Origin: Pseudolabrys sp.
GTDB lineage: Bacteria > Pseudomonadota > Alphaproteobacteria > Rhizobiales > Xanthobacteraceae
Assembly: GCA_017849615.1 (NCBI GenBank)
Contig: JAFIGS010000011.1
Span: 310,001-374,000, forward strand
Length of the DNA stretch: 64,000 nt
Direction of reading: 5' to 3'
Shown here: positions 9,471 through 22,164 of the stretch, piece by piece
Layout: each line of letters starts with the position of its first letter
How positions within the stretch are numbered: the stretch's first letter is position 1
Made by a program: the position numbers and the translations under genes
Notes under the pieces: model-generated
What the model was told of the DNA's origin: nothing
Seen by the model: the letters and a program-made list of their open reading frames with translations, nothing else
Database searches by the model: none

Positions 9471-10688
9471 ATGACCGACAAGATCCGTGACGTTTTCATT
9501 TGCGACGCCGTTCGTACGCCGATCGGCCGCTATGCCGGTTCGCTCGCCAAGGTTCGCGCCGACGATCTTGCCGCCATTCCGATCAAGGCGCTGATGGCGC
9601 GCAATCCGAAAGTGGATTGGGAGAAGGTCGAAGAGGTCGTGTTCGGCTGCGCCAATCAGGCCGGCGAGGACAACAGAAACGTCGCACGCATGGCGGCGCT
9701 GCTCGCCGGTCTGCCGGCCTCGGTGCCGGGCGTGACGGTCAACCGCCTCTGCGCCTCCGGACTTAACGCGGTCGGCGACGTTGCGCGCGCCATCCGCGCC
9801 GGCGAAATGGAATTCGCCATCGCCGGCGGCGTCGAGTCGATGACGCGCGCACCCTTCGTGCAGGGCAAGGCCACCGAAGCCTTTTCGCGCTCGGCCGAGA
9901 TATATGACACCACCATCGGCTGGCGCTTCATCAATCCGCTGATGAAAGCGCAATACGGCGTCGATTCCATGCCGGAGACCGGCGAGAACGTCGCCGAGGA
10001 TTATCAGGTGTCGCGCGCCGACCAGGACGCCTTCGCCTGGCGCTCGCAGCAGAAGGCCGGCAAGGCCATCGCCGCGGGCTTTTTCGCCAGGGAAATCGTG
10101 CCGGTCGAGATCGCCGGCCGCAAAGGCGACGTGGTGAAGATCGACGCGGACGAGCATCCGCGTCCGGAAACCACGCTCGAGCAGCTCGCCAAGCTCAAGA
10201 CGCCATTCCGCAACCCCGGCACGGTGACGGCCGGCAACGCTTCCGGCGTCAATGACGGCGCCGCGGCGCTGATCCTGGCCTCCGCGGAGGCGGTAAAGGC
10301 TCACGGTTTGACACCGCGCGCCCGCGTTCTCGGCATGGCATCGGCCGCCGTCCCGCCGCGCGTGATGGGCATCGGCCCCGTGCCGTCGACCCAGAAGCTG
10401 ATGGCGCGGCTCGGCCACAAGATCGGCGACTACGATATTATAGAGCTGAACGAAGCCTTCGCCTCGCAATCGCTCGCTGTCATGCGTCAGTTGGGACTTC
10501 CCGACGACGCCGAACACGTCAATCCGCATGGCGGCGCCATCGCTTTGGGCCATCCGCTCGGCATGTCAGGCGCGCGTCTGGCATTGACGGCGACGCATGC
10601 TCTGGAGGAAAAGGCTGGAAAGCTCGCGCTCGCAACCATGTGTGTCGGTGTCGGCCAGGGAGTGTCCCTGGCGATCGAGCGCGTTTAA
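9471..10688 (+). CDS. pcaF: 3-oxoadipyl-CoA thiolase
   Basis: A 405-residue thiolase that matches PcaF closely: [19 protein letters not shown] at the N-terminus, Cys in [12 protein letters not shown] (about residue 90), [20 protein letters not shown], and MCVGVGQG at the end. It catalyses the last step of the beta-ketoadipate pathway, giving succinyl-CoA and acetyl-CoA. AAGGA precedes the ATG. It is followed after about 20 bp by pcaH and pcaG, which supports a protocatechuate function. The pathway genes pcaB, C, D, I and J are not in the window. Confidence 0.92.
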
Positions 10689-10707
10689 TCGAGAGGGGAT
10701 AACCAAG

Positions 10708-11418
10708 GTGGCGCTGATCTATCCGACCAAAAGCCTCGAGAACTTTCCGAAGCATCTCACGCCGAACTACAAGAGCACGGTCAAGCGTTCGCCGACCCGG
10801 CCGCTGATGATCATTCCGCATACCCTGTCGGAATTGACCGGCCCGGTTTACGGCCATAACGCGGTGCAGGAAGGCGACAACGATCTCACCAGGCAGCACG
10901 CCGGCGAGCCGCTCGGCGAGCGCATCGTCGTTCACGGTCAGGTGCTCGACGAAGACCGCCGTCCGGTGAAGAGCGCGCTGATCGAGCTGTGGCAGGCCAA
11001 TGCCTGCGGCCGTTACGTGCACAATGTCGATCAGCATCCGGCGCCGCTCGATCCGAACTTCACCGGCGCGGGCCGCACCGTCACCGACGACAACGGCTAC
11101 TACAAGTTCATCACCGTGAAGCCCGGCGCCTATCCGTGGGGCAATCACCACAACGCCTGGCGCCCCAACCACATCCACTTCTCGGTGTTCGGCCACTCCT
11201 TCGTGTCGCGCCTCGTCACGCAGATGTATTTCCCGGGCGACTATCTGTTCCCGTTCGATCCGATCTTCAATTCGGTGACCGACGAGAAGGCGCGCAACCG
11301 CATGGTGGCGTCGTTCGATCTCGAGAACACCGTGCCGGACTGGGCGCTGGCATTCAAATTCGACATCGTGCTGCGCGGCCGCGAGGCGACCCCGCTCGAC
11401 AACGACGATCATCACTGA
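10708..11418 (+). CDS. pcaH: Protocatechuate 3,4-dioxygenase beta subunit
   Basis: 236 residues from the GTG at 10708 with GAGAGGGG upstream; a longer reading from 10597 overlaps pcaF and has no family resemblance. The non-haem Fe(III) ligands are visible: Tyr in NACGRYVH, Tyr in GAYPWGNHHNAW, and two His in WRPNHIHFSV. PcaH forms the iron-bearing half of the intradiol ring-cleavage enzyme that opens protocatechuate to 3-carboxymuconate. pcaG follows after about 20 bp. Confidence 0.95.
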   Translation: MALIYPTKSLENFPKHLTPNYKSTVKRSPTRPLMIIPHTLSELTGPVYGHNAVQEGDNDLTRQHAGEPLGERIVVHGQVLDEDRRPVKSALIELWQANACGRYVHNVDQHPAPLDPNFTGAGRTVTDDNGYYKFITVKPGAYPWGNHHNAWRPNHIHFSVFGHSFVSRLVTQMYFPGDYLFPFDPIFNSVTDEKARNRMVASFDLENTVPDWALAFKFDIVLRGREATPLDNDDHH

Positions 11419-11439
11419 GACAGGCGGGAAAAGAGCACC

Positions 11440-12051
11440 ATGTCCGAAATCACGCCGTCACAGACCGTCGGTCCGTTCTTCGCCTATGGCCTCACGCCGG
11501 TGGGGCGCTGCGAGTGGGATCCGAACGGCCACTATTCGTGGAAGAACTCCGTCGAGTCGAACCTCGTCACCCCGGACGCGTCCGGCACGCGCATCCGCGT
11601 CGTCGGCACCGTGTTCGACGCCGACAACGCGCCGATCAACGATTGCATGATCGAGATCTGGCAGGCCGATGCTCAGGGCCGTTACGCCAGCGCGCAGGAC
11701 AGCCGCGCGCTGCCCAACAGCCAGTTCAAGGGCTTCGGTCGCTCGGCGACCGACAAGGCCGGCCTGTTCGTGTTCGACACGATCAAGCCGGGCGCGGTGC
11801 CGGGCCCCGGCGGCAAGGAGCAGGCGCCGCATATCGTGGTCGCTATCTTCTCGCGCGGCATGCTGCGGCAGGTCTATACGCGGCTGTATTTCTCCGACGA
11901 GCCGGCCAATGCCGCCGATCCGGTGCTCAATCTGGTGCCCGCCGAGCGCCGCGGCACCCTGATTGCCCACAAGGAAGCGGGCGAGCCGCCGGTCTATCGC
12001 TTCAACGTCCACATGCAGGGCGACAGCGAAACCGTGTTCTTCGAAGTCTGA
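11440..12051 (+). CDS. pcaG: Protocatechuate 3,4-dioxygenase alpha subunit
   Basis: A 203-residue partner of PcaH with the same intradiol dioxygenase fold. It starts MSEITPSQTVGPFFAYGL, typical of PcaG, and contains IEIWQADAQGRYAS. The iron-ligand histidines of the beta subunit are replaced (QAPHIVVAIFSRG), as expected for the alpha chain. It ends 33 bp before a strong intrinsic terminator, so pcaF-pcaH-pcaG looks like one transcription unit. Confidence 0.95.
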   Translation: MSEITPSQTVGPFFAYGLTPVGRCEWDPNGHYSWKNSVESNLVTPDASGTRIRVVGTVFDADNAPINDCMIEIWQADAQGRYASAQDSRALPNSQFKGFGRSATDKAGLFVFDTIKPGAVPGPGGKEQAPHIVVAIFSRGMLRQVYTRLYFSDEPANAADPVLNLVPAERRGTLIAHKEAGEPPVYRFNVHMQGDSETVFFEV

Positions 12052-12084
12052 TCGACAGGCGGCAAGGGCCGCGGGCTTGGAAAG

Positions 12085-12114
12085 GCGGGCGCTCCGGCGC
12101 CCGCTTTTTTTTTT
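12085..12114 (+). terminator. Rho-independent terminator after pcaG
   Basis: The stem GCGGGCGC/GCGCCCGC (8 bp, perfect) with a TCCG loop is followed by ten consecutive T. It ends the pcaFHG transcript. Confidence 0.95.
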
Positions 12115-12458
12115 GCAGGTCAGCCAACAAGAAAAAGATGCCCAACAAAAGCCGGTCCGGGAGGTGGGCAGTGGGCGGAAATCGGTGCCAAAAAAGTTGC
12201 GGGCGCAAGTAAATCGAATAAGCTGTTGTAATAAAATAGAAATTTTGCTGCGATAAGTCTGCCCAACTCATCTGCCCAACTTTTTTGTATCGATTTTTTC
12301 GTTGACGCCGCGTCCCTCTCTTTGTTTGGCTAGGCCCAGCGGCCGCCAGAGCCGCGTCAGCCATGACGTCAGAACCGACGTCCCAGGGCGCTGAAACGAC
12401 AAGGGACAAGCGGTCTTCCGCGCCCGGCACCGGGCTCGCCGTTTGAAGGGAAACGCCG
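12115..12458. promoter_or_regulatory. AT-rich intergenic region with TCTGCCCAACT direct repeats
   Basis: No gene is visible in these 344 bp. Much of it is AT-rich for this genome. The 11-mer TCTGCCCAACT occurs exactly twice, at 12258-12268 and 12271-12281, 13 bp apart. A partial copy (TGCCCAAC) lies at 12139-12146. It is the presumed promoter region of the gene at 12459. The repeat could be an activator or repressor site, but no known consensus was recognised. Confidence 0.5.
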
Positions 12459-13874
12459 ATGAACGAGGTCATCCTCCAGGAGATCGCCGAATTCTGCCGC
12501 CAGCGCGGGCTGGCGGAATCCACGTTCGGCCGCAGGGCCGTCAATGACGGCAAGCTCGCCAGCCGCCTGCGCAATGGCGGCCGCATCACCACCGACACGC
12601 TCGATCGCATTCGCTCCTTCATGGCGCATGGCAGCGACGGCAGCACCGCGCGTCGTCGGCGTCTGGCCATCGATGGCCCGTCCGCGCAATCGCTTCCCGT
12701 CATTAAAATGCAGGCGCCGCCAATGGCCTCCGCTCAAGTCGACAACGACGATCCGCAGCGCAATTTCCGCTTCTTCGACAATCGCCAGAAGTATCTGCTG
12801 TTCGTGAACACCTGCTCCGAGAAGTGGGAGGTCGCGCAGCGCGTCTCGCTCGAACTCGACAACATCCATCCGCGGCCGCCGGCGGTGCGCGTGTTCGACG
12901 CCGGCGTCGGCGACGGCACGGTGCTGACGCGGGTGATGCGCTCGATGCATCACAAATTCCCGACCATGCCGTTCCAGATCGTCGGCAAGGAAATCAGCCT
13001 CGAGGACGTGCGCCTCGCGCTGCAAAAGATGCCCGACCGCTTCATGGAGCATCCCTCGACCGTCGTCGTCCTCACCAACCTCGCTTACGCCGACGCGCCG
13101 TGGCTCGCCGCCAAGTCGCTGTCGGCCGCGACCTCGATGGTGTGGAAGGAAGTCGCGCTCGACGGCAACACCGCGCATTCCTTCGAGGAGCAGATCACCG
13201 CGCTGGAGCCGTTCCTCGCCGAATCCTGGAAAGCCAAGGTGTCGCCGACCAGCGGCAATCCGGTTTACGAGCGCCCGGTCGTGCTGGTGCTGTACCGCAA
13301 CGATCACCGCTTCATGCTCGATCAGGTGATCCCGAAGCCGGGCGGCTCGCATGCCGACTACGATCTGGTCATCGCCTCGCAGCCTTATCGCGCCCGCGCC
13401 TCGCTGGAGTTCAAGGCCAAGCGCGTCTTGGCGCCACTCGCCCGTGCGCTCGGTCCCGGCGGCCGCATGATCACCATCCAGTCCTACGGCAACGATCCCG
13501 GCATGGAGATCGTCCACAAGGTCTGGCCCGACGACAATCCGTTCATGCACAGCCGCCACGATCTCCTCAAGGAGACCAAGCAGGAGCTCGGCTCGGCGGG
13601 GCGCGATCTGAACTTCAACGTCTATTCCGACCAGCGTTCGCTGTTCCGCTACGACATGCACACGCTGCCGTCCGAAGTGTCGTCGTCGATCGGCACCTCG
13701 ACCTTGCTGGCCGCATGGAACGCCGCGGTCTATGTCGCACAGGTGGAGGACGATCGCCTGTCGGACATCAATTCGGACCGTCGCTATGTCGACGCCACGC
13801 GCGAGGTGCTGCAGCAGCGCGGCGGCCTTTGGTTCTTCGACGAATCCTTCGTCATCTCGAGACGCCGCCAGTAG
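12459..13874 (+). CDS. Methyltransferase-like protein with N-terminal helical domain, function unknown
   Basis: A 471-residue soluble protein. Residues 1-55 are a compact helical segment resembling a DNA-binding or adaptor domain (FCRQRGLAESTFGRRAVNDG, then KLASRLRNGGRITTDTLDRI). After a linker comes a Rossmann-like SAM-binding signature, VFDAGVGDGTVLTRVMR (about residue 145). The rest, including DYDLVIASQPYRARAS and ALGPGGRMITIQSYG, fits a methyltransferase fold. It is followed after about 40 bp by a MetF-like gene and lies near a LigM-type demethylase, so a role in one-carbon handling is possible. The acceptor is not recognisable, and a role in regulation cannot be excluded. Confidence 0.6.
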   Translation: MNEVILQEIAEFCRQRGLAESTFGRRAVNDGKLASRLRNGGRITTDTLDRIRSFMAHGSDGSTARRRRLAIDGPSAQSLPVIKMQAPPMASAQVDNDDPQRNFRFFDNRQKYLLFVNTCSEKWEVAQRVSLELDNIHPRPPAVRVFDAGVGDGTVLTRVMRSMHHKFPTMPFQIVGKEISLEDVRLALQKMPDRFMEHPSTVVVLTNLAYADAPWLAAKSLSAATSMVWKEVALDGNTAHSFEEQITALEPFLAESWKAKVSPTSGNPVYERPVVLVLYRNDHRFMLDQVIPKPGGSHADYDLVIASQPYRARASLEFKAKRVLAPLARALGPGGRMITIQSYGNDPGMEIVHKVWPDDNPFMHSRHDLLKETKQELGSAGRDLNFNVYSDQRSLFRYDMHTLPSEVSSSIGTSTLLAAWNAAVYVAQVEDDRLSDINSDRRYVDATREVLQQRGGLWFFDESFVISRRRQ

Positions 13875-13912
13875 CGCGGCGTCTTTCCAACGAAACGGGC
13901 TTTCCAGTGAAC

Positions 13913-14761
13913 ATGCTCATGAAAGCATCGCCGGCCACCATCGCGCGGCGCTTCTCGATCGAAACGACGCGGCCGAAGCCGGCCGAGATCGATGCCGTCG
14001 CCGCGGCGGTGCCGAAAGGCGCCGAGATCTACATCACCGCGGTGCCGACGCAGACCGACGACGAACTGGTCGCCGCCGCCGCCCATGCGCGCCGCGCCGG
14101 GCTCGAGCCGGTGGTGCATATCGCGGCGCGGCGGTTGCCGAGCGTCGAATTCCTGCGGGAGCGACTCGCGCGCCTTCAGGCCGAGGCGGATGTGCGCCGC
14201 CTGCTGGTGATCGGCGGTGACATCGATCCGGTCGGCCCCTTCGCCGATGCGCTGGCCGTGATCCAGAAGGGCAAATTGCCCGAGGCCGGCATCGAGCATG
14301 TCGGCATTGGCGCCTATCCGGAGGGCCATCCTGTGATTCCGCTGGACCGGCTGGTGGCCTCGCTCGATGAAAAGATCGCCGCCGCTGTGGCGCAAGGTCT
14401 GGGCGTGCGCCTCGTCAGCCAGTTCTCGTTCTCGCCGGACGAAATCGTCGCCTGGCTCAAGAAATTGCGCGCCACCGGCATCACCCAGCCGGTGAGTGTC
14501 GGCATGGTCGGCCCGACCAGCGTGCCGGCCCTGTTGCGCTTTGCCAAGCGCTGCGGCGTCGGCACCTCGCTCAAGGGCCTGATGTCCGGCGCCGCCAGCG
14601 CGCTGATCGGCAATGTCGGTCCCGACCGCATCATTCACGCGCTCGATGCCGCGCAGGCGACCGTCGGCGATGTGCAGCCGCACTATTTCACCTTCGGCAA
14701 CCTCGTCGCCACCGCCGAGTACGGCACGGCGATGGCGGAGAAGGAAATCGCGGCGGCCTAA
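13913..14761 (+). CDS. Methylenetetrahydrofolate reductase-like protein
   Basis: About 282 residues. The start is uncertain: a GTG at 13907, or ATG at 13913 or 13919, with no clear ribosome site. The pattern PVVHIAARR ... RRLLVIGGDIDPVGPF ... HVGIGAYPEGHP matches the MetF TIM barrel, which interconverts methylene- and methyl-tetrahydrofolate with FAD. It is probably in one operon with the upstream methyltransferase-like gene. O-demethylation by LigM yields 5-methyl-tetrahydrofolate, and metF-type genes accompany ligM in other lignin degraders, so it probably recycles that cofactor. Confidence 0.8.
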   Translation: MLMKASPATIARRFSIETTRPKPAEIDAVAAAVPKGAEIYITAVPTQTDDELVAAAAHARRAGLEPVVHIAARRLPSVEFLRERLARLQAEADVRRLLVIGGDIDPVGPFADALAVIQKGKLPEAGIEHVGIGAYPEGHPVIPLDRLVASLDEKIAAAVAQGLGVRLVSQFSFSPDEIVAWLKKLRATGITQPVSVGMVGPTSVPALLRFAKRCGVGTSLKGLMSGAASALIGNVGPDRIIHALDAAQATVGDVQPHYFTFGNLVATAEYGTAMAEKEIAAA

Positions 14762-14780
14762 CCGGCCAAGAAGTAGATTG

Positions 14781-14814
14781 TAGCGTGCTATAACTATAAT
14801 TTAGCGTGGTATAT
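14781..14814 (+). repeat. Direct repeat TAGCGTGSTATAW, two copies 21 bp apart
   Basis: TAGCGTGCTATAA (14781-14793) and TAGCGTGGTATAT (14802-14814) are spaced by two helical turns. A TATAAT lies between them at 14795-14800. They sit just upstream of the AT-rich nuclease-like gene and may be its promoter and operator. Confidence 0.55.
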
Positions 14815-14870
14815 TATTGGCTAGAGGTGTTTTCGTTCTCCTGTCCGGAGAAGGAAAGCATTTTTTGGGC

Positions 14871-16205
14871 ATGCACATAATGGACAGCCTTCAACTCGAA
14901 ATCGCTCGCTTTATAGTGGCGAAGGCGCTGCGGAAATCGCGGGTGACGTATCAACAAGTCGGAGAGGCAATTGGCTGGAACCATCCTCATGGTCGTGGCC
15001 TCGGGAAGAATCTTGAGACGATCCTTCTCCACTTGCATGATCGCGGATTGCCGCCACTCACGACGATCCTGGTAAAGAAAGGCGAACGCTATCCAGCCGA
15101 AGATGCAATGACATACATCCGTGGTGTTCTCGGTCAAATTGATATCGAGCAGGCTCAGCAGCAGGTATTTAGTTTCGATTGGCTGCGTGTGCCTGAACTG
15201 ATGCCCGACAAGGATACGTTACCAAACAGCCGCAATGCCTGGCTCACTTCGTTTTGGGGATTTGCTCCAAGTGAATGGGGGTGTATTGGCTTCGCGGATG
15301 AGGGAAAACGCAACAGATATTTGAAGCTTTCAAAGCCGGGAGATATTACAGCAATCTACGTGACCAAGGGCAAAGGCCCAGAGGAAATGCGAGGCAAAGT
15401 TGTCGGAGTTCTCGAGGTCTCGCACCAGACCGGCCATGCAAGAGAATTTATTTCAGGAGATCGCTGGGCGGAGAAGGAGAATGACCCTCAATCGAGAGGA
15501 AAGTGGCTTTATGCAGTAAAGGTGACGCGTGCTTGGCGGGTAATTACTGAGGACTGGCAACCTGTAGAAGCCATCTTCCCGTCTACGTACGGAAGTGCGC
15601 ATCCAGAATTTATTGGCTCAAGCGGCGTTCAAATGTCGCGCGAAGAAGCTGAGCGCTTGTTGCAATTGGACGTTTATGAAGTGCCAGTTTACGGTCAGTC
15701 GGAGCCAATAAATCCAACGATCAGCACGCTTGATGCGGCCCTTGTTCCAAGTCGCGCAGTGCCCGCTTCTTCGGGGCCCTACTGGGTGGGAGAAACTGAC
15801 GGTCCCAAGCATCTTTATATACTTGAACTGACGGGAGATATAGCGGCTTATTTAGGTAGACCGCTAGCGGCTGTCGAGGGAAAGTCGGTCATTAAGGTCG
15901 GTTTCTCTAAAAGTCCGATGGCGCGCCGCGACCAAATCCAAAGCGCGTATCCTCGTGGGCAGTTCAAATGGGTAGTGGTGCGACCTGAGCCAATGCCCGA
16001 GCAGGCGCCATACTTAAATACACAGGTAGCTATTGCTGGTGAGGACGCGATGAAGAAGCGTCTTGTTGACGAGCGAGCTGAGGTCTTGGGCGGCGAGTTT
16101 TTTCTAGCCGACGACTGTCTTGTTTACAGCGCTTGGAGTGCGGGGATGTATGCCGCAAACCAAGCCCAATTGTCCCTGCGTCCAAAAAAATCCGCCGAGA
16201 GTTAA
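14871..16205 (+). CDS. Putative modification-sensing nuclease: wHTH-like, EVE/PUA-like and GIY-YIG (T5orf172-type) domains
   Basis: 444 residues from the ATG at 14871 (GGAGAAGGAAAG upstream; ATG at 14880 is also possible). Residues 1-75 look like a winged-helix DNA-binding domain (RVTYQQVGEAIGWNHPHGRG). Residues 125-225 resemble an EVE/PUA-like pocket: RYLKLSKPGDI, KVVGVLEVS, then KWLYAVKVTRAWRV. Residues 315-425 fit a T5orf172/MUG113 GIY-YIG nuclease: LYILEL, VIKVGFSKSPMARRDQ, a likely catalytic Glu at 391 and GGEFF at 408-411. Base composition and codon use are clearly more AT-rich than in its neighbours, so it was probably acquired. It interrupts the MetF-like/ligM neighbourhood. By inference it is a modification-dependent restriction-like enzyme; activity is unproven. 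Confidence 0.6.
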   Translation: MHIMDSLQLEIARFIVAKALRKSRVTYQQVGEAIGWNHPHGRGLGKNLETILLHLHDRGLPPLTTILVKKGERYPAEDAMTYIRGVLGQIDIEQAQQQVFSFDWLRVPELMPDKDTLPNSRNAWLTSFWGFAPSEWGCIGFADEGKRNRYLKLSKPGDITAIYVTKGKGPEEMRGKVVGVLEVSHQTGHAREFISGDRWAEKENDPQSRGKWLYAVKVTRAWRVITEDWQPVEAIFPSTYGSAHPEFIGSSGVQMSREEAERLLQLDVYEVPVYGQSEPINPTISTLDAALVPSRAVPASSGPYWVGETDGPKHLYILELTGDIAAYLGRPLAAVEGKSVIKVGFSKSPMARRDQIQSAYPRGQFKWVVVRPEPMPEQAPYLNTQVAIAGEDAMKKRLVDERAEVLGGEFFLADDCLVYSAWSAGMYAANQAQLSLRPKKSAES

Positions 16206-16212
16206 AGATTCG

Positions 16213-16242
16213 GCAGCATGGCGAGCTTAGTCGCCATGCTGC
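16213..16242. terminator. Bidirectional terminator-like hairpin between convergent genes
   Basis: Perfect 12-bp arms GCAGCATGGCGA/TCGCCATGCTGC with a 6-nt loop lie between the stop of the nuclease-like gene and the stop of ligM. T-rich sequence follows on the plus side (TGTTCTTGCTTTCC). Confidence 0.75.
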
Positions 16243-16268
16243 GATGTTCTTGCTTTCCTCTGCAGACC

Positions 16269-17678
<1,410 letters not shown>

Positions 17679-17754
17679 TCACTCCCACGTGTTGTGTTTC
17701 ATTGACTGCGAGCGTCCGGCCGAACGTCTTTCCGGGCCGGAAAACCGCAAGGCC

Positions 17755-17855
17755 GTATACAGCCGGTCGGTGTCGCTTGCGTAAAACCAGAAATTTGCGC
17801 CAAAATCGATCCCGGAATGAGGCCGGATTTGGCATTTGGTCTATTCCTCGTATAC
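17755..17855. promoter_or_regulatory. ligM/gntR divergent promoter region with two GTATAC sites
   Basis: GTATAC occurs at 17755-17760 (in CCGTATACAG) and at 17850-17855 (in TCGTATACAA). The second is one base off TTGTATACAA, a common operator core for FCD-type GntR repressors. Both sites lie between the divergent ligM and gntR starts, which suggests autoregulation and repression of ligM, perhaps by looping. Confidence 0.6.
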
Positions 17856-17907
17856 AACAGGCTTCCGAGCGTCCTCAAGGATTGGGCAGAAAAAAAGGAG
17901 CCCACCG

Positions 17908-18669
17908 GTGCCCACCCCACCCGCTGAGCCCGACCGCGCCTCCTCCCAGACCGTCAAGGCCCAGCTTGCGCTGCGCGACCTGATCCTGTCCGGCGGTCTC
18001 AAGCCGGGAGACCGGGTGTCGGAGCTGTCGCTGGTCGATCGGCTCGGCATGTCGCGTACGCCGATCCGCATGGCGCTGGTCCGCCTGGAGGACGAGGGCT
18101 TCCTCGAAGCGATCCCGTCCGGCGGTTTCGCCATCAAGGCCTTCACCGAGCGCGACGTCTACGACGCCATCGATCTGCGCGGCATGGTCGAGGGTTTTGC
18201 CGCGCGCATTGCCGCCGAGCGCGGCGTGCCCGGCGGTCTTATCCGCGATATGAAGAACGCGTTGCGGCAGATTGATGACATCGCCGCCTTGCCGGAACTG
18301 AGCGTCGATCATTTCTCCGAATACGTCGATCTCAACGGCCGCTTTCATGCGCTGCTGGCGGAGGCCGCCGACAGCCCGGTGGTCAGGCGCCAGATCGAGC
18401 GCGTGTCGAACCTGCCCTTCGCCTCGCCGTCGGGCTTCGTCATGGTGCAGGCCATGCTTCCCGAGGCGAGACACATTCTCACCATCGCGCAGGACCACCA
18501 CCACTGCGTGGTCCGCGCCATCGAGGATCGCGAAGGCATGCGCGCCGAATCGCTGATGCGCGAGCATGCGCGGCTGGCGCAACGCAATCTGCAGCTCGCG
18601 CTCGGCGATCAGGGCACGCGCAGCCTGGTACCGGGCGTCGTCCTCATCCGTGGCGGCGCTCTCGTATGA
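17908..18669 (+). CDS. GntR-family transcriptional regulator (FCD subfamily)
   Basis: 253 residues from the GTG at 17908, chosen because AAAGGAG lies 7 bp upstream. The winged helix (LRDLILSGGLKPGDRVSE ... LGMSRTPIRMALVRLEDEGFL) is at residues 20-85. It is followed by an all-helical FCD ligand domain with the usual metal/ligand residues (DLNGRFHALLAEAADS, HHHCVVRAIEDRE, EHARLAQRNL). It is divergent from ligM and is a likely vanillate-responsive repressor of VanR type. The effector is inferred from position only. Confidence 0.88.
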   Translation: MPTPPAEPDRASSQTVKAQLALRDLILSGGLKPGDRVSELSLVDRLGMSRTPIRMALVRLEDEGFLEAIPSGGFAIKAFTERDVYDAIDLRGMVEGFAARIAAERGVPGGLIRDMKNALRQIDDIAALPELSVDHFSEYVDLNGRFHALLAEAADSPVVRRQIERVSNLPFASPSGFVMVQAMLPEARHILTIAQDHHHCVVRAIEDREGMRAESLMREHARLAQRNLQLALGDQGTRSLVPGVVLIRGGALV

Positions 18670-18779
18670 CCAAAGAAGAGTTCCGCCGCGGCTGACGCTG
18701 CCCACTCATCGTGCTAAGGCACCCCCGAATTGACGCCGCGGGCGGGGATAAATCCCACGGCGATTTTTGGAGGAAGTGA

Positions 18780-19889
18780 ATGTCCCAGAGAAGCAAACCG
18801 CCGTTCCGCGCCGATCAGGTCGGCTCCATCCTGCGCACCACCGCGATCCATGAGGCGCGGACCAAGCACGAAAAGGGCGAGATCACCGACGCGCAGCTCA
18901 AGGCGATCGAAGACGCCGAAATCATCAAGATCATCAAGAAGCAGGAAGAACTCGGCCTCCAGCCCGTCACCGACGGCGAATTCCGCCGCGCCTGGTGGCA
19001 TTACGACTTCTTCGGCATGCTCGACGGCGTTGACGTCGTTCCGTCCGATCACGGCATCCAGTTCCAGGGCGTTCAGACCAAGATGCAGGTGCTGAACATC
19101 ACCGGCAAGATCGGCTTCTCCGCCAGTCACCCGATGCTCGAGCACTTCAAGTTCCTCAAGGCGCACACCAGCCGCACGCCGAAGATGACCATTCCGGCGC
19201 CGAGCGTGATGCACTTCCGTCTCGAGCCGGATGCGGTCAAGACCAGCGTCTATGCGAATCGCGACGCGATTTTCGACGACCTCGCCATCGCCTATCAGAA
19301 AGCTGTGAAGGCGTTCTACGACGCCGGCTGCCGCTACCTGCAGTTCGACGACACCGCCTGGGCCTATCTGTGCTCGCAGGACGAACTGAAGAAGGCGCGC
19401 GACCGCGGCCTCGATGTCGATCATCTGCAGGACAGCTACACCAGGATGATCAACAAGGCGCTGGAAGCCAAGCCGGCCGACATGGTCATCACCACGCATG
19501 TCTGCCGCGGCAACTTCCGCTCGACCTTCATCTCGTCGGGCGGCTACGAGCCGGTGGCGCAGAACCTGCTCGAGAAGTGCAACTACGACGGCTACTTCCT
19601 CGAATACGACACCGACCGCGCCGGCGGTTTCGAGCCGCTGCGCTTCCTGCCCAAGGGCAACAAGGTCGTGGTGCTCGGTCTTGTCACCTCGAAGTCCGGC
19701 ACGCTCGAGAAGAAGGAAGACATCAAGAAGCGCATCGAGGAGGCGACCAGGTTCGTCGCGCTCGACCAGCTCGCGCTGTCGCCGCAGTGCGGCTTCGCCT
19801 CGACCGAGGAAGGCAATACGCTGGCCGAGGACGAACAGTGGGCCAAGTTCAAGATGATCCTCGATATCTCGAAGGAAGTCTGGGGCTGA
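18780..19889 (+). CDS. MetE-core-like cobalamin-independent methyltransferase (YxjG/YxjH type)
   Basis: A 369-residue protein equal to the catalytic half of MetE, without the N-terminal folate-binding half. The zinc-site features are HVCRGNF (about residue 240) and QCGFAST (about 338); the FDDTAWAYL stretch forms the pocket floor. Such short MetE-like proteins transfer methyl groups to thiols such as homocysteine. Lying close to the LigM demethylase and a MetF-like gene, it is a plausible sink for methyl groups stripped from lignin aromatics. The exact donor is unknown. Confidence 0.82.
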   Translation: MSQRSKPPFRADQVGSILRTTAIHEARTKHEKGEITDAQLKAIEDAEIIKIIKKQEELGLQPVTDGEFRRAWWHYDFFGMLDGVDVVPSDHGIQFQGVQTKMQVLNITGKIGFSASHPMLEHFKFLKAHTSRTPKMTIPAPSVMHFRLEPDAVKTSVYANRDAIFDDLAIAYQKAVKAFYDAGCRYLQFDDTAWAYLCSQDELKKARDRGLDVDHLQDSYTRMINKALEAKPADMVITTHVCRGNFRSTFISSGGYEPVAQNLLEKCNYDGYFLEYDTDRAGGFEPLRFLPKGNKVVVLGLVTSKSGTLEKKEDIKKRIEEATRFVALDQLALSPQCGFASTEEGNTLAEDEQWAKFKMILDISKEVWG

Positions 19890-19896
19890 TCTTCTG

Positions 19897-20082
19897 CCCT
19901 CTCCCCGCTGGCGGGGAGAGGGTGGCTTGTATCGCGATTACGCGATGCAAGCCGGGTGAGGGGGCGCTAAACTCGCGCTCCAACGGCCCCTCACCCGATT
20001 GTCTTCGTTGCACTCAGACAATCGACCTCTCCCCGCATAGGCGGGCGGACGCTCGCCGTCCGGCGAGCTATGCGGGGAGAGG
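19897..20082. repeat. REP-like palindromic mosaic
   Basis: Several nested inverted repeats: CCCTCTCCCCGC/GCGGGGAGAGGG (19897-19922), GGCTTG/CAAGCC (19924-19952), CGGGTGAGGGG/CCCCTCACCCG (19953-19997), and a 15-bp perfect arm pair CCTCTCCCCGCATAG with its complement (20026-20040 and 20068-20082) enclosing GCTCGCCG/CGGCGAGC. It fills the gap between the MetE-like and MaoC genes and has no coding content. It resembles interspersed palindromic elements common in Hyphomicrobiales. Confidence 0.8.
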
Positions 20083-20106
20083 TAAAGAAAGAGCGTACTG
20101 AGTCAT

Positions 20107-20991
20107 ATGCCCCTCAACGTCGAAGCCCTTCTCGCCGCGCAGTTGCCACCCATCGAGCGAACCTATGGTCCGAAGGATTGCATCCTTTATGCGCTCGGCG
20201 TCGGCCTCGGTTACGACCCGACCAATGAGGACGAACTCGCCTTCGTCTACGAGAAGAACATCAAGGTGCTGCCGACTTTCGCGGTGGTGCCCGCCTTCGA
20301 CTACAGGTGGATGCTGCGCCCCGAATTCGGCCTGACCTGGAGCCACATCGTTCACGGCGAGGAGGCGATCGTCCTGCATGCGCCGATCCCGCCGCAAGGC
20401 ACGGTGATCGGCCGCGAGCATGTCGTGGATGTCGTTGACAAGGGCGAGGGCAAAGGCGCACTGCTGTTTCATGAGCGCAGCCTGATCGACAAGGCGACCG
20501 GCACGCTGCTCGCCACGCTGAAGCAGACCACGTTCTGCCGCGCCGATGGCGGCTTCGCCGCGACGTCGGGCGGCGCGCGGCGCGACACGCCCGCGGCGCA
20601 TCCCATTCCCGATCGCGCGCCGGATATCGTCTGCGATTTGCCGACGCGTCCGGAGATGGCGCTGCTCTACCGGCTGTCGGGCGACGAAAATCCGCTTCAC
20701 GCCGAGCCGGCTTTCGCGCGCGCGGCCGGTTTCCCGCGGCCGATCCTGCACGGCCTCGCCACCATGGGCGTCGCCGGACACGCCCTGCTCAAGTCGGTCT
20801 GCGGCTACAACCCCGAGCGGCTAAAGGTCATGTCGGTGCGCTTCTCCGCGCCGGTGTTTCCCGGCGAAACCATCCGCACCGAGATCTGGCAGGATAGCGG
20901 CAAAGCCGGCGCTGTTGTCACGTTTCGCGCCCGTGTTAAGGAACGGGATGTCCTCGCCATCAATAACGGGCGGGCGGAAATAGCTCAGTAG
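20107..20991 (+). CDS. MaoC-family enoyl-CoA hydratase 2-like dehydratase
   Basis: A 294-residue double hot-dog protein. The C-terminal half carries the hydratase-2 motif YRLSGDENPLHAEPAFARAA followed by GFPRPILHGL, with the catalytic Asp and His. The N-terminal half is the usual non-catalytic hot-dog (TFAVVPAF). It hydrates trans-2-enoyl-CoA to the R-3-hydroxyacyl-CoA. It is followed 9 bp later by an acyl-CoA dehydrogenase and then a CoA-transferase, forming an acyl-CoA catabolic operon of unknown substrate. Confidence 0.88.
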   Translation: MPLNVEALLAAQLPPIERTYGPKDCILYALGVGLGYDPTNEDELAFVYEKNIKVLPTFAVVPAFDYRWMLRPEFGLTWSHIVHGEEAIVLHAPIPPQGTVIGREHVVDVVDKGEGKGALLFHERSLIDKATGTLLATLKQTTFCRADGGFAATSGGARRDTPAAHPIPDRAPDIVCDLPTRPEMALLYRLSGDENPLHAEPAFARAAGFPRPILHGLATMGVAGHALLKSVCGYNPERLKVMSVRFSAPVFPGETIRTEIWQDSGKAGAVVTFRARVKERDVLAINNGRAEIAQ

Positions 20992-21000
20992 AGGAAGCGC

Positions 21001-22164
21001 ATGACTGGACCGCAAGAGAACTATGCCGACATTCGCGAGTCCGTGCGCGCGCTGTGCGACAGGTTCCCCGGCGAATACTGGCGCGAACTCGATCGCGACC
21101 GCGCCTACCCGACGGCGTTCGTCAAGGCCCTCACCGAGGCGGGGTATCTCGCCGCGCTGATCCCGGAAGAGTTTGGCGGCAGCGGCCTGCCGGTGTCGGC
21201 GGCGGCCGCGATCATGGAAGAGATCCATGCGGCCGGCGGCAATGGCGCGGCCTGCCACGCGCAGATGTACACGATGGGCACCATTCTGCGGCACGGCTCG
21301 CCGGCGCAGAAGGAGCGCTATCTGCCCAAGATCGCCACCGGCGAATTGCGCCTGCAGGCTTTCGGCGTCACCGAGCCGACCTCCGGCACCGATACATTGT
21401 CGCTGCGCACCGTGGCGCGGCGCGGCGGCGACGAATACGTCATCAACGGCCAGAAGATCTGGACCTCGCGCGCCGAGCATTCCGACCTGATGCTGCTGCT
21501 GGCGCGCACGACGCCGAAGGAAGAGGTGAAGAAGCGCACCGACGGCCTGTCGGTGTTCCTGGTCGATATGCGCAAGGCGCTCGAAGCCGGGACGCTGACC
21601 ATCAAGCCGATCCGCACCGTGATGAATCACGCCACCACGGAAGTGTTCTTCGACGACCTCCGCGTGCCGGCAGAAAATCTCATCGGCGAGGAAGGCAAGG
21701 GCTTCCGTTACATTCTCTCGGGCATGAACACCGAGCGCATCCTGATCGCGTCGGAATGCATCGGCGACGCCAAATGGTTCATCAGGAAGGCGGCCGATTA
21801 CGCCAAGGAGCGCGTGCTGTTCGGCCGGCCGATCGGCCAGAATCAGGGCGTGCAGTTCCCGATCGCGCGCGCCTATGCGCAGATGCGGGCCGCCGAGCTG
21901 ATGGTGCATGAGGCCTGCCGCAAATACGAAGCCGGCGAGGATCTCGGCGCCGAGGCCAATATGGCCAAGCTGCTCGCCGCCGATGCGTCATGGGCCGCCG
22001 CCGACATGTGCGTGCAGACGCATGGCGGCTTCGGCTTCGCCGAGGAGTATGACGTCGAGCGCAAATTCCGCGAAACGCGCCTCTATCAGGTGGCGCCGAT
22101 TTCGACCAATCTCATTCTGTCGTATCTGGCCGAGCACGTGCTCGGTCTGCCGAGGTCGTATTAG
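21001..22164 (+). CDS. Acyl-CoA dehydrogenase
   Basis: A 387-residue flavoprotein of the ACAD family. It contains QAFGVTEPTSGTDT (FAD/substrate contact), WTSRAEHSD, and the C-terminal RVLFGRPIGQNQGVQFPIA and QTHGGFGFAEEYDVER signatures. It would introduce the 2,3 double bond into an acyl-CoA and pass electrons to ETF. Its place between the MaoC hydratase and the CoA-transferase suggests a dedicated pathway for a short organic acid. The substrate cannot be read from the sequence. Confidence 0.92.
   Translation: MTGPQENYADIRESVRALCDRFPGEYWRELDRDRAYPTAFVKALTEAGYLAALIPEEFGGSGLPVSAAAAIMEEIHAAGGNGAACHAQMYTMGTILRHGSPAQKERYLPKIATGELRLQAFGVTEPTSGTDTLSLRTVARRGGDEYVINGQKIWTSRAEHSDLMLLLARTTPKEEVKKRTDGLSVFLVDMRKALEAGTLTIKPIRTVMNHATTEVFFDDLRVPAENLIGEEGKGFRYILSGMNTERILIASECIGDAKWFIRKAADYAKERVLFGRPIGQNQGVQFPIARAYAQMRAAELMVHEACRKYEAGEDLGAEANMAKLLAADASWAAADMCVQTHGGFGFAEEYDVERKFRETRLYQVAPISTNLILSYLAEHVLGLPRSY

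Follow-up and report, generated by a model that had tools for sequence, protein, structure and literature searches.

What kind of protein is encoded by an open reading frame (ORF) that sits between two metabolic genes of Pseudolabrys sp. and is clearly richer in AT than its neighbours, and how did it come to lie there? We addressed this question in a 64,000-nucleotide stretch of the genome (assembly GCA_017849615.1, contig JAFIGS010000011.1, positions 310,001 to 374,000; hereafter the window, in whose own numbering positions are given). The ORF runs intact on the + strand from an ATG at 14871 to a stop codon ending at 16205 (444 amino acids), and a second in-frame ATG at 14880, the start position of close homologues in the alignment, is probably the true start (441 amino acids). 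We interpret this gene (14871..16205) as a three-domain candidate modification-dependent nuclease gene, and hold with a probability of roughly two in three that its product is a single-protein, type IV-like DNA endonuclease lacking any NTPase part, carried as a horizontally acquired lone defence gene. The original prediction was of a stand-alone type IV-like restriction factor; the folds, the foreign gene and the defence neighbours of relatives support it, and we infer a DNA substrate, a requirement for modification, cutting at a distance and an anti-phage or anti-plasmid role.

Searches with the window protein by itself yielded little, as scans against Pfam, NCBIfam, PADLOC and PHROGs returned only a sub-threshold match to NF002008 (E 0.045, residues 151-187) and phmmer against the PDB nothing useful. 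The three-domain reading is instead backed by the predicted structure, profile-profile comparison and relatives (two of which, L012 and L013, were dropped before structure prediction; L and G numbers are our own handles for loci and genomes), and these sources bear out the earlier proposal of a winged helix-turn-helix, an EVE/PUA-like part and a GIY-YIG domain in one chain. Structure prediction gave both a PUA/EVE-like barrel and a T5orf172 C-terminus, and the motifs singled out beforehand (KPGDI, VVGVLEV, WLYAVKVTR, Glu391 and GGEFF) are all present in the translation. The domain limits first suggested, residues 1-75, 125-225 and 315-425, were about right, the first two being too narrow.

The C-terminal domain (15801..16178, +; model residues 308-433) follows a predicted flexible linker (15747..15800, +; about residues 290-307, with pLDDT below 50 at 291-304), and its assignment to the T5orf172 type of GIY-YIG fold, with a conserved nuclease active site, is well supported by modelling and profiles. 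Comparison of the C-terminus with PF10544 members by hhalign gave E 1.5e-5, assessed alongside shuffles (19 loci were listed for this set, 11 extracted and ten used, L087 lacking the pattern), and the strand and helix order of the predicted model fits the GIY-YIG fold. BFVD fold matches were named T5orf172, and we infer that they fall on the C-terminus. To summarize the putative active site, we used a 21-row alignment made up of 17 rows plus L072, L059, L012 and L013 (L067, which has an HNH end, and the fragments L011, L014 and L069 were excluded), in which the following + strand codons are invariant in 21/21 rows: Tyr316 (15816..15818; also 17/17 in the smaller alignment), equivalent to the GIY tyrosine; Lys342 (15894..15896), within KVG at the second-tyrosine position; Arg352 (15924..15926), the likely catalytic arginine; Glu391 (16041..16043), the presumed metal-binding glutamate; and Glu409 (16095..16097), within GGEFF, the apparent counterpart of GEWF in T5orf172. 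The GIY-type motif itself reads LYIL. Lysine also replaces the second tyrosine in 10 of the 11 extracted PF10544 proteins, the pattern having been searched for, and in R.Hpy188I, where Y63, K73, R84 and E149 stand against Y316, K342, R352 and E391, although R.Hpy188I is a type II enzyme, unlike the type IV-like role predicted here (PMC2630997; cited, like all papers here, from parts of its text). Structure databases added little, such that a PDB profile search with the C-terminus returned one chain, the UPF0213 protein 1ywl (E 0.5), and PDB fold searches had no GIY-YIG chain among the matches listed, full-model matches being dominated by the barrel. Chain 1ywl is itself a GIY-YIG protein, and the match was not taken as evidence.

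Upstream of the linker lies an EVE/ASCH/YTH-like barrel of the PUA superfamily (15222..15689, +; model residues 115-270), which we predict from the model to be a reader of a modified base. Predicted-structure searches placed it in that superfamily (EVE/ASCH/YTH), with VcaM4I among the matches, and Trp129, Phe131, Trp136, Trp212 and Trp222, invariant in eight aligned rows, are candidate residues of an aromatic pocket. To our knowledge, R.Hpy188I has no such reader barrel. In VcaM4I, 5-methylcytosine (5mC) or 5-hydroxymethylcytosine (5hmC) is flipped out and sits in a pocket formed by P24, W82 and Y130 (PMC7897488).

The N-terminal winged-helix-like module (14880..15209, +; model residues 1-110) appears closer to the DNA-binding domain of alkyltransferases (AGT/ATL; PF01035) than to that of DpnI, with a weak fold match (best Foldseek E 0.51). 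A first AGT profile comparison with 11 rows was likewise weak (E 0.041, score 10.6, against up to 8.2 in 50 shuffles), and with an enlarged N-terminal profile 398 of 400 shuffles scored at most 9.8, the two others, near 130 on a single aligned column, being treated as hhalign artefacts and omitted. The AGT set comprised 25 loci, L103 and L121 going unused because we read no PCHR pattern in them. None of 25 rows of the module has the PCHR active-site cysteine motif, and LPPLT or similar stands at its likely place. Against DpnI_C (PF17726), hhalign scored 3.1 over 6 aligned columns with a six-row profile (ten loci, eight extracted, six used; L147 and L151 could not be read cleanly, and L152 and L153 were weak), below the 12.2 reached by the 72 of 100 shuffles used, 28 with fewer than five aligned columns having been omitted. 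DpnI was not among the 50 fold-search matches listed for the module, and a PDB profile search with the N-terminus returned one chain, Werner helicase (E 0.92), which we did not take as evidence. The same module also precedes an HNH_2 or a probable PD-(D/E)XK domain (L075:922-1710, L136:958-1887, L140:1432-2337; the PD-(D/E)XK label of L136 was given by eye, phmmer against the PDB being empty) and is further found in many short open frames of unassigned role. A distant relative, L067:9224-10270 (G164), keeps the EVE-like part and has an HNH-like end in place of GIY-YIG (motif by eye, Pfam HNH sub-threshold), which, judged from sequence, may be a natural nuclease swap.

These N-terminal observations bear on two further readings. 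The first, which we offer tentatively and consider unlikely, is a two-reader enzyme in which an ATL-type winged helix and an EVE-type barrel would both have to sense modified or distorted DNA, for example altered phage guanines, before the GIY-YIG domain fires, the same ATL-like module serving as a common reader across GIY-YIG, HNH and PD-(D/E)XK-like nucleases. The second is a repair or lesion nuclease in which an ATL-like damage reader and a UvrC-like GIY-YIG cutter would excise alkylated or bulky bases. ATL proteins hand lesions to UvrABC, and UvrC contains a GIY-YIG domain, and this link and the apparent AGT/ATL likeness of the module both speak for repair. We nevertheless find it very unlikely: the AGT fold match is weak, the C-terminus is T5orf172-like with no UvrC likeness demonstrated, and a sporadic, horizontally moved gene, missing from nearly all relatives and with defence genes near 7 of 15 loci, is unlike housekeeping repair.

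By analogy with VcaM4I, winged helix (wH)-GIY-YIG enzymes and CMoRE, we propose that the favoured modification-dependent endonuclease would work as follows. The EVE-like barrel would flip a modified base out of the helix and keep it bound, the N-terminal winged helix would grip the DNA (reading sequence context or a second mark), and the T5orf172 GIY-YIG domain, on its flexible linker, would cut nearby with a metal ion via Tyr316, Lys342, Arg352 and Glu391.

The candidate nuclease gene is foreign and was probably acquired horizontally. Its GC content is 0.526, compared with a mean of 0.656 (sd 0.028, minimum 0.567) for 44 other window ORFs called by a simple script whose frame is sometimes wrong, for instance over ligM, and this agrees with its earlier description as more AT-rich than its neighbours. 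Pfam identifies the flanking genes as metF-like (MTHFR, PF02219) and ligM-like (GCV_T, PF01571, convergent to the nuclease gene), again as anticipated. We compared window positions 10000-22000 by blastn with seven same-genus loci picked by their ligM match (L052-L058), of which six reach the metF-ligM site and one, L055, stops at a contig edge. Five of those six (L052, L053, L054, L057 and L058) have metF and ligM adjacent without the nuclease gene, with 243-969 nt between the aligned blocks, and the metF end of the sixth (L056) is unaligned. Aligned blocks stop at the metF end (14761) or up to 136 nt before it, and restart at ligM (16269) or no more than about 80 nt into it, leaving a segment (14762..16268; GC 0.519) with no counterpart in the same intergenic region of relatives. 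From the five pairs without the gene, we conclude that about 1.5 kb either entered a variable intergenic stretch or took its place. Direct and inverted repeats are present, and none bracket the segment. Homologues of host-like composition at this locus in all relatives, which would have spoken for a resident gene, are thus not what we see: the gene is absent there in the relatives checked and its composition is foreign. Separately, the gap of L052 (5863-6453, G004) is occupied by another small ORF, which lies on the opposite strand and has EF-hand-like repeats by eye, such that the metF-ligM gap may tolerate insertions.

A lone insertion amid conserved genes would also suit a free-standing homing endonuclease or other selfish gene, and GIY-YIG enzymes include homing endonucleases. 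However, the full-length copies (window, L005-L009, L012 and L062) have different neighbours, apart from two Bradyrhizobium loci that share a downstream gene, and the metF-ligM spacers of four compared relatives differ from one another, so that no conserved target is seen and we regard this explanation as highly improbable.

Few alphaproteobacteria carry a close homologue (57-72% identity), and those that do are scattered across the class. Besides the genome's own copy, 3 of 59 other relatives match, all remotely (G016 of the same genus, 29% over the barrel, and two within the order). A search of genome contigs revealed seven loci, in Ancylobacter (72%), Ensifer (68%), Pleomorphomonas (69%), two Bradyrhizobium (65-66%) and one Hyphomonadaceae (35%), with a fragment in Aquamicrobium, and plasmids added Limimaricola (69%), Thioclava (27%) and a fragment in Aminobacter. 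Profile searches found the family in 7 of 385 genomes of the class and 12 of 398 of the phylum (own genome counted), four of the latter matches (L073-L076) covering the N-terminal module alone. Viral contigs (protein and alignment queries, pattern-limited scans) and phage records yielded zero relatives, leaving a phage origin unsupported. The family is under purifying selection, the ratio of nonsynonymous to synonymous rates (dN/dS) being 0.13 for L007/L008 and 0.075 for L005/L009; four pairs involving the window gene were saturated at synonymous sites. Apparent gene remains occur in Aquamicrobium (L011:7956-8234) and on the Aminobacter plasmid (L014:12001-12268, no gene listed under the match), and in L047 (G204) a TAG falls within the match to the family; together these point to repeated decay, as expected for defence genes.

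To ask, as the original prediction had suggested, whether homologues have defence-island neighbours, we surveyed 15 loci (L005-L010, L012, L013 and L060-L066; L059 was left out) to a reach of about 6.5 kb, giving 188 script-called ORFs, most family genes included, of which 46 chosen by hand were scanned with Pfam, plus one outside, ten of them also with PADLOC. Defence genes (restriction, methylase, GmrSD, Gabija) lie near 7 of the 15. L005 has two C5 methylases, Mrr_cat, the nuclease gene, GajA and a UvrD-type helicase, in that order; L006 has an SNF2/PLDc helicase, a type ISP/IIG methylase, the nuclease gene, AlbA_2 and GmrSD; and the rest have an HsdR-like neighbour (L008), HsdM and HsdS ahead of the nuclease gene (L013), a C5 methylase about 4 kb off (L060), an MmeI-type enzyme (L063) and GmrSD_N (L064). 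Toxin-antitoxin genes occur in L012 and were not counted as defence genes, and L062 has an integrase. In both Bradyrhizobium loci (L007:9400-10272 and L008:9400-10272), the nuclease gene is followed at the same place by a 291-amino-acid ORF, possibly encoding a partner of the nuclease; in L007 this ORF matches DUF6615.

The same neighbours raise the alternative that a restriction-modification system (type IIG/ISP, MmeI-like or type I) uses the protein as its nuclease or accessory arm, one that an adjacent methylase recruited or that balances this methylase, the window copy being a stray parted from its partner. In its favour, helicase through AlbA_2 in L006 form a tight operon with gaps of 0-9 bases, the gene lies about 20 bp past the MmeI-type enzyme in L063 and behind HsdM/HsdS in L013, and a DNA methyltransferase stands within three genes at at least 4 of 15 loci (L005, L006, L013 and L063) for the ORFs scanned. 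Yet the adjoining methylases are of four different types, so that no fixed partner is seen, the other 11 loci had none within three genes among the ORFs scanned (46 of 188), and the window copy is alone; we therefore judge this alternative quite unlikely. The earlier statement that there is no methylase partner is thus correct for the window copy as far as its two flanking genes go, and fails for these four relatives. Among more than 1,000 wH fusions, 87% had no methylase within three genes either side (Helbrecht et al., PMC11037411).

Several points weigh against a modification-dependent nuclease. For the folds, structural ranking does not separate EVE from ASCH or YTH, and the window protein matches neither PF01878 nor PF10544, with 3 and 4 of 16 family members, respectively, reaching sub-threshold matches. 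Domains of the PUA superfamily can bind RNA as well, and both ASCH and RNA-binding YTH domains are among the best fold matches, as would suit an RNA-reading barrel in an RNA-directed regulator or abortive-infection factor; to this we give a very slim chance, since the C-terminus holds GIY-YIG catalytic residues and winged-helix modules usually bind DNA. For the neighbourhoods, the 7 of 15 count lacks a matched control set and we claim no enrichment, the ORFs scanned beside the window copy, L010, L061 and L065 are all metabolic or housekeeping genes, and several relatives' loci carry DNA methyltransferases, including the two C5 methylases of L005, where a general 5mC-dependent nuclease would not be tolerated. 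For the host, its own genome has no PF00145 match, which would make a 5mC reader safe, and has one full and one short PF01555 match and one PF02384 match (45 bits, above cut-off), so that a general N6-methyladenine (6mA) reader could be self-harming. The full PF01555 match is probably CcrM.

How does the modification-dependent endonuclease that we favour compare with known enzymes? Its general kind is already known. When discussing putative type IV enzymes, Bell et al. 2020 (PMC7641849) state that EVE is fused to PLDc or GIY-YIG nucleases in many proteins; the GIY-YIG fusions, like ours, join an EVE-type reader to a GIY-YIG nuclease and are proposed to be putative modification-dependent enzymes. 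They also mention one GIY-YIG - MmcQ/YjbR - EVE protein whose middle part may confer sequence specificity, so that it too has a DNA-binding third part, in another domain order. The words 'winged', 'wHTH', 'T5orf172', 'alkyltransferase' and 'methylguanine' are absent from its main text, excluding the supplement. VcaM4I (PMC7897488) is an EVE-HNH enzyme of proven 5mC/5hmC specificity, with an N-terminal barrel and no winged helix in the text available, whereas the window protein has GIY-YIG and no base assigned. Ahi29725I and Apa233I (PMC11037411), proven 6mA-dependent, likewise combine a winged helix and GIY-YIG in a stand-alone single chain, wH-GIY-YIG enzymes cutting at a distance from G6mATC; the available text mentions no PUA-type barrel for them, and our winged helix has no DpnI_C profile match. 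CMoRE / PD-T4-3 (PMC12923530) is a proven single-component GIY-YIG type IV enzyme, as the window protein is by prediction, but its GIY-YIG domain is N-terminal and carries a GIYxY motif, and its sensor fold has no known relatives, in contrast to our C-terminal GIY-YIG with LYIL. In the open-access literature, searched mostly at title and abstract level and without supplements, we came across no enzyme that joins a winged helix, an EVE-like barrel and GIY-YIG in this order, and no restriction enzyme with an ATL-like module. The three-part arrangement therefore looks undescribed, as originally suggested, though EVE-GIY-YIG fusions as a class were not new.

Around the gene, a 12-bp perfect inverted repeat forms a terminator-like hairpin (16213..16242, +) 7 nt past the nuclease stop; three such hairpins were found in the region against a mean of 2.1 in shuffles, which is not above shuffles. 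A promoter scan matched nothing upstream of the nuclease gene, with regional counts not above shuffles. Elsewhere in these genomes, the window has one Meth_synt_2 gene (cobalamin-independent methionine synthase-like; 18780-19889), for which L052, L053 and L057 have one match each, and L054, L055, L056 and L058 two to four matches in a row beside ligM, a tandem expansion in a one-carbon cluster. The own genome also holds a separate T5orf172 match above cut-off (G000:C27:395880-396110), in a 108-amino-acid open frame about 22 kb past the window end.

Modification-dependent enzymes are used to map modified bases, and they account for some of the conflict in which phages disguise their DNA and hosts target the disguise. 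If our reading is true, this three-part enzyme would join the small set of restriction enzymes attacking modified DNA, with a reader-nuclease pairing for which the literature searched held no bench test, and its N-terminal module may be a new reader of altered DNA common to three nuclease folds.
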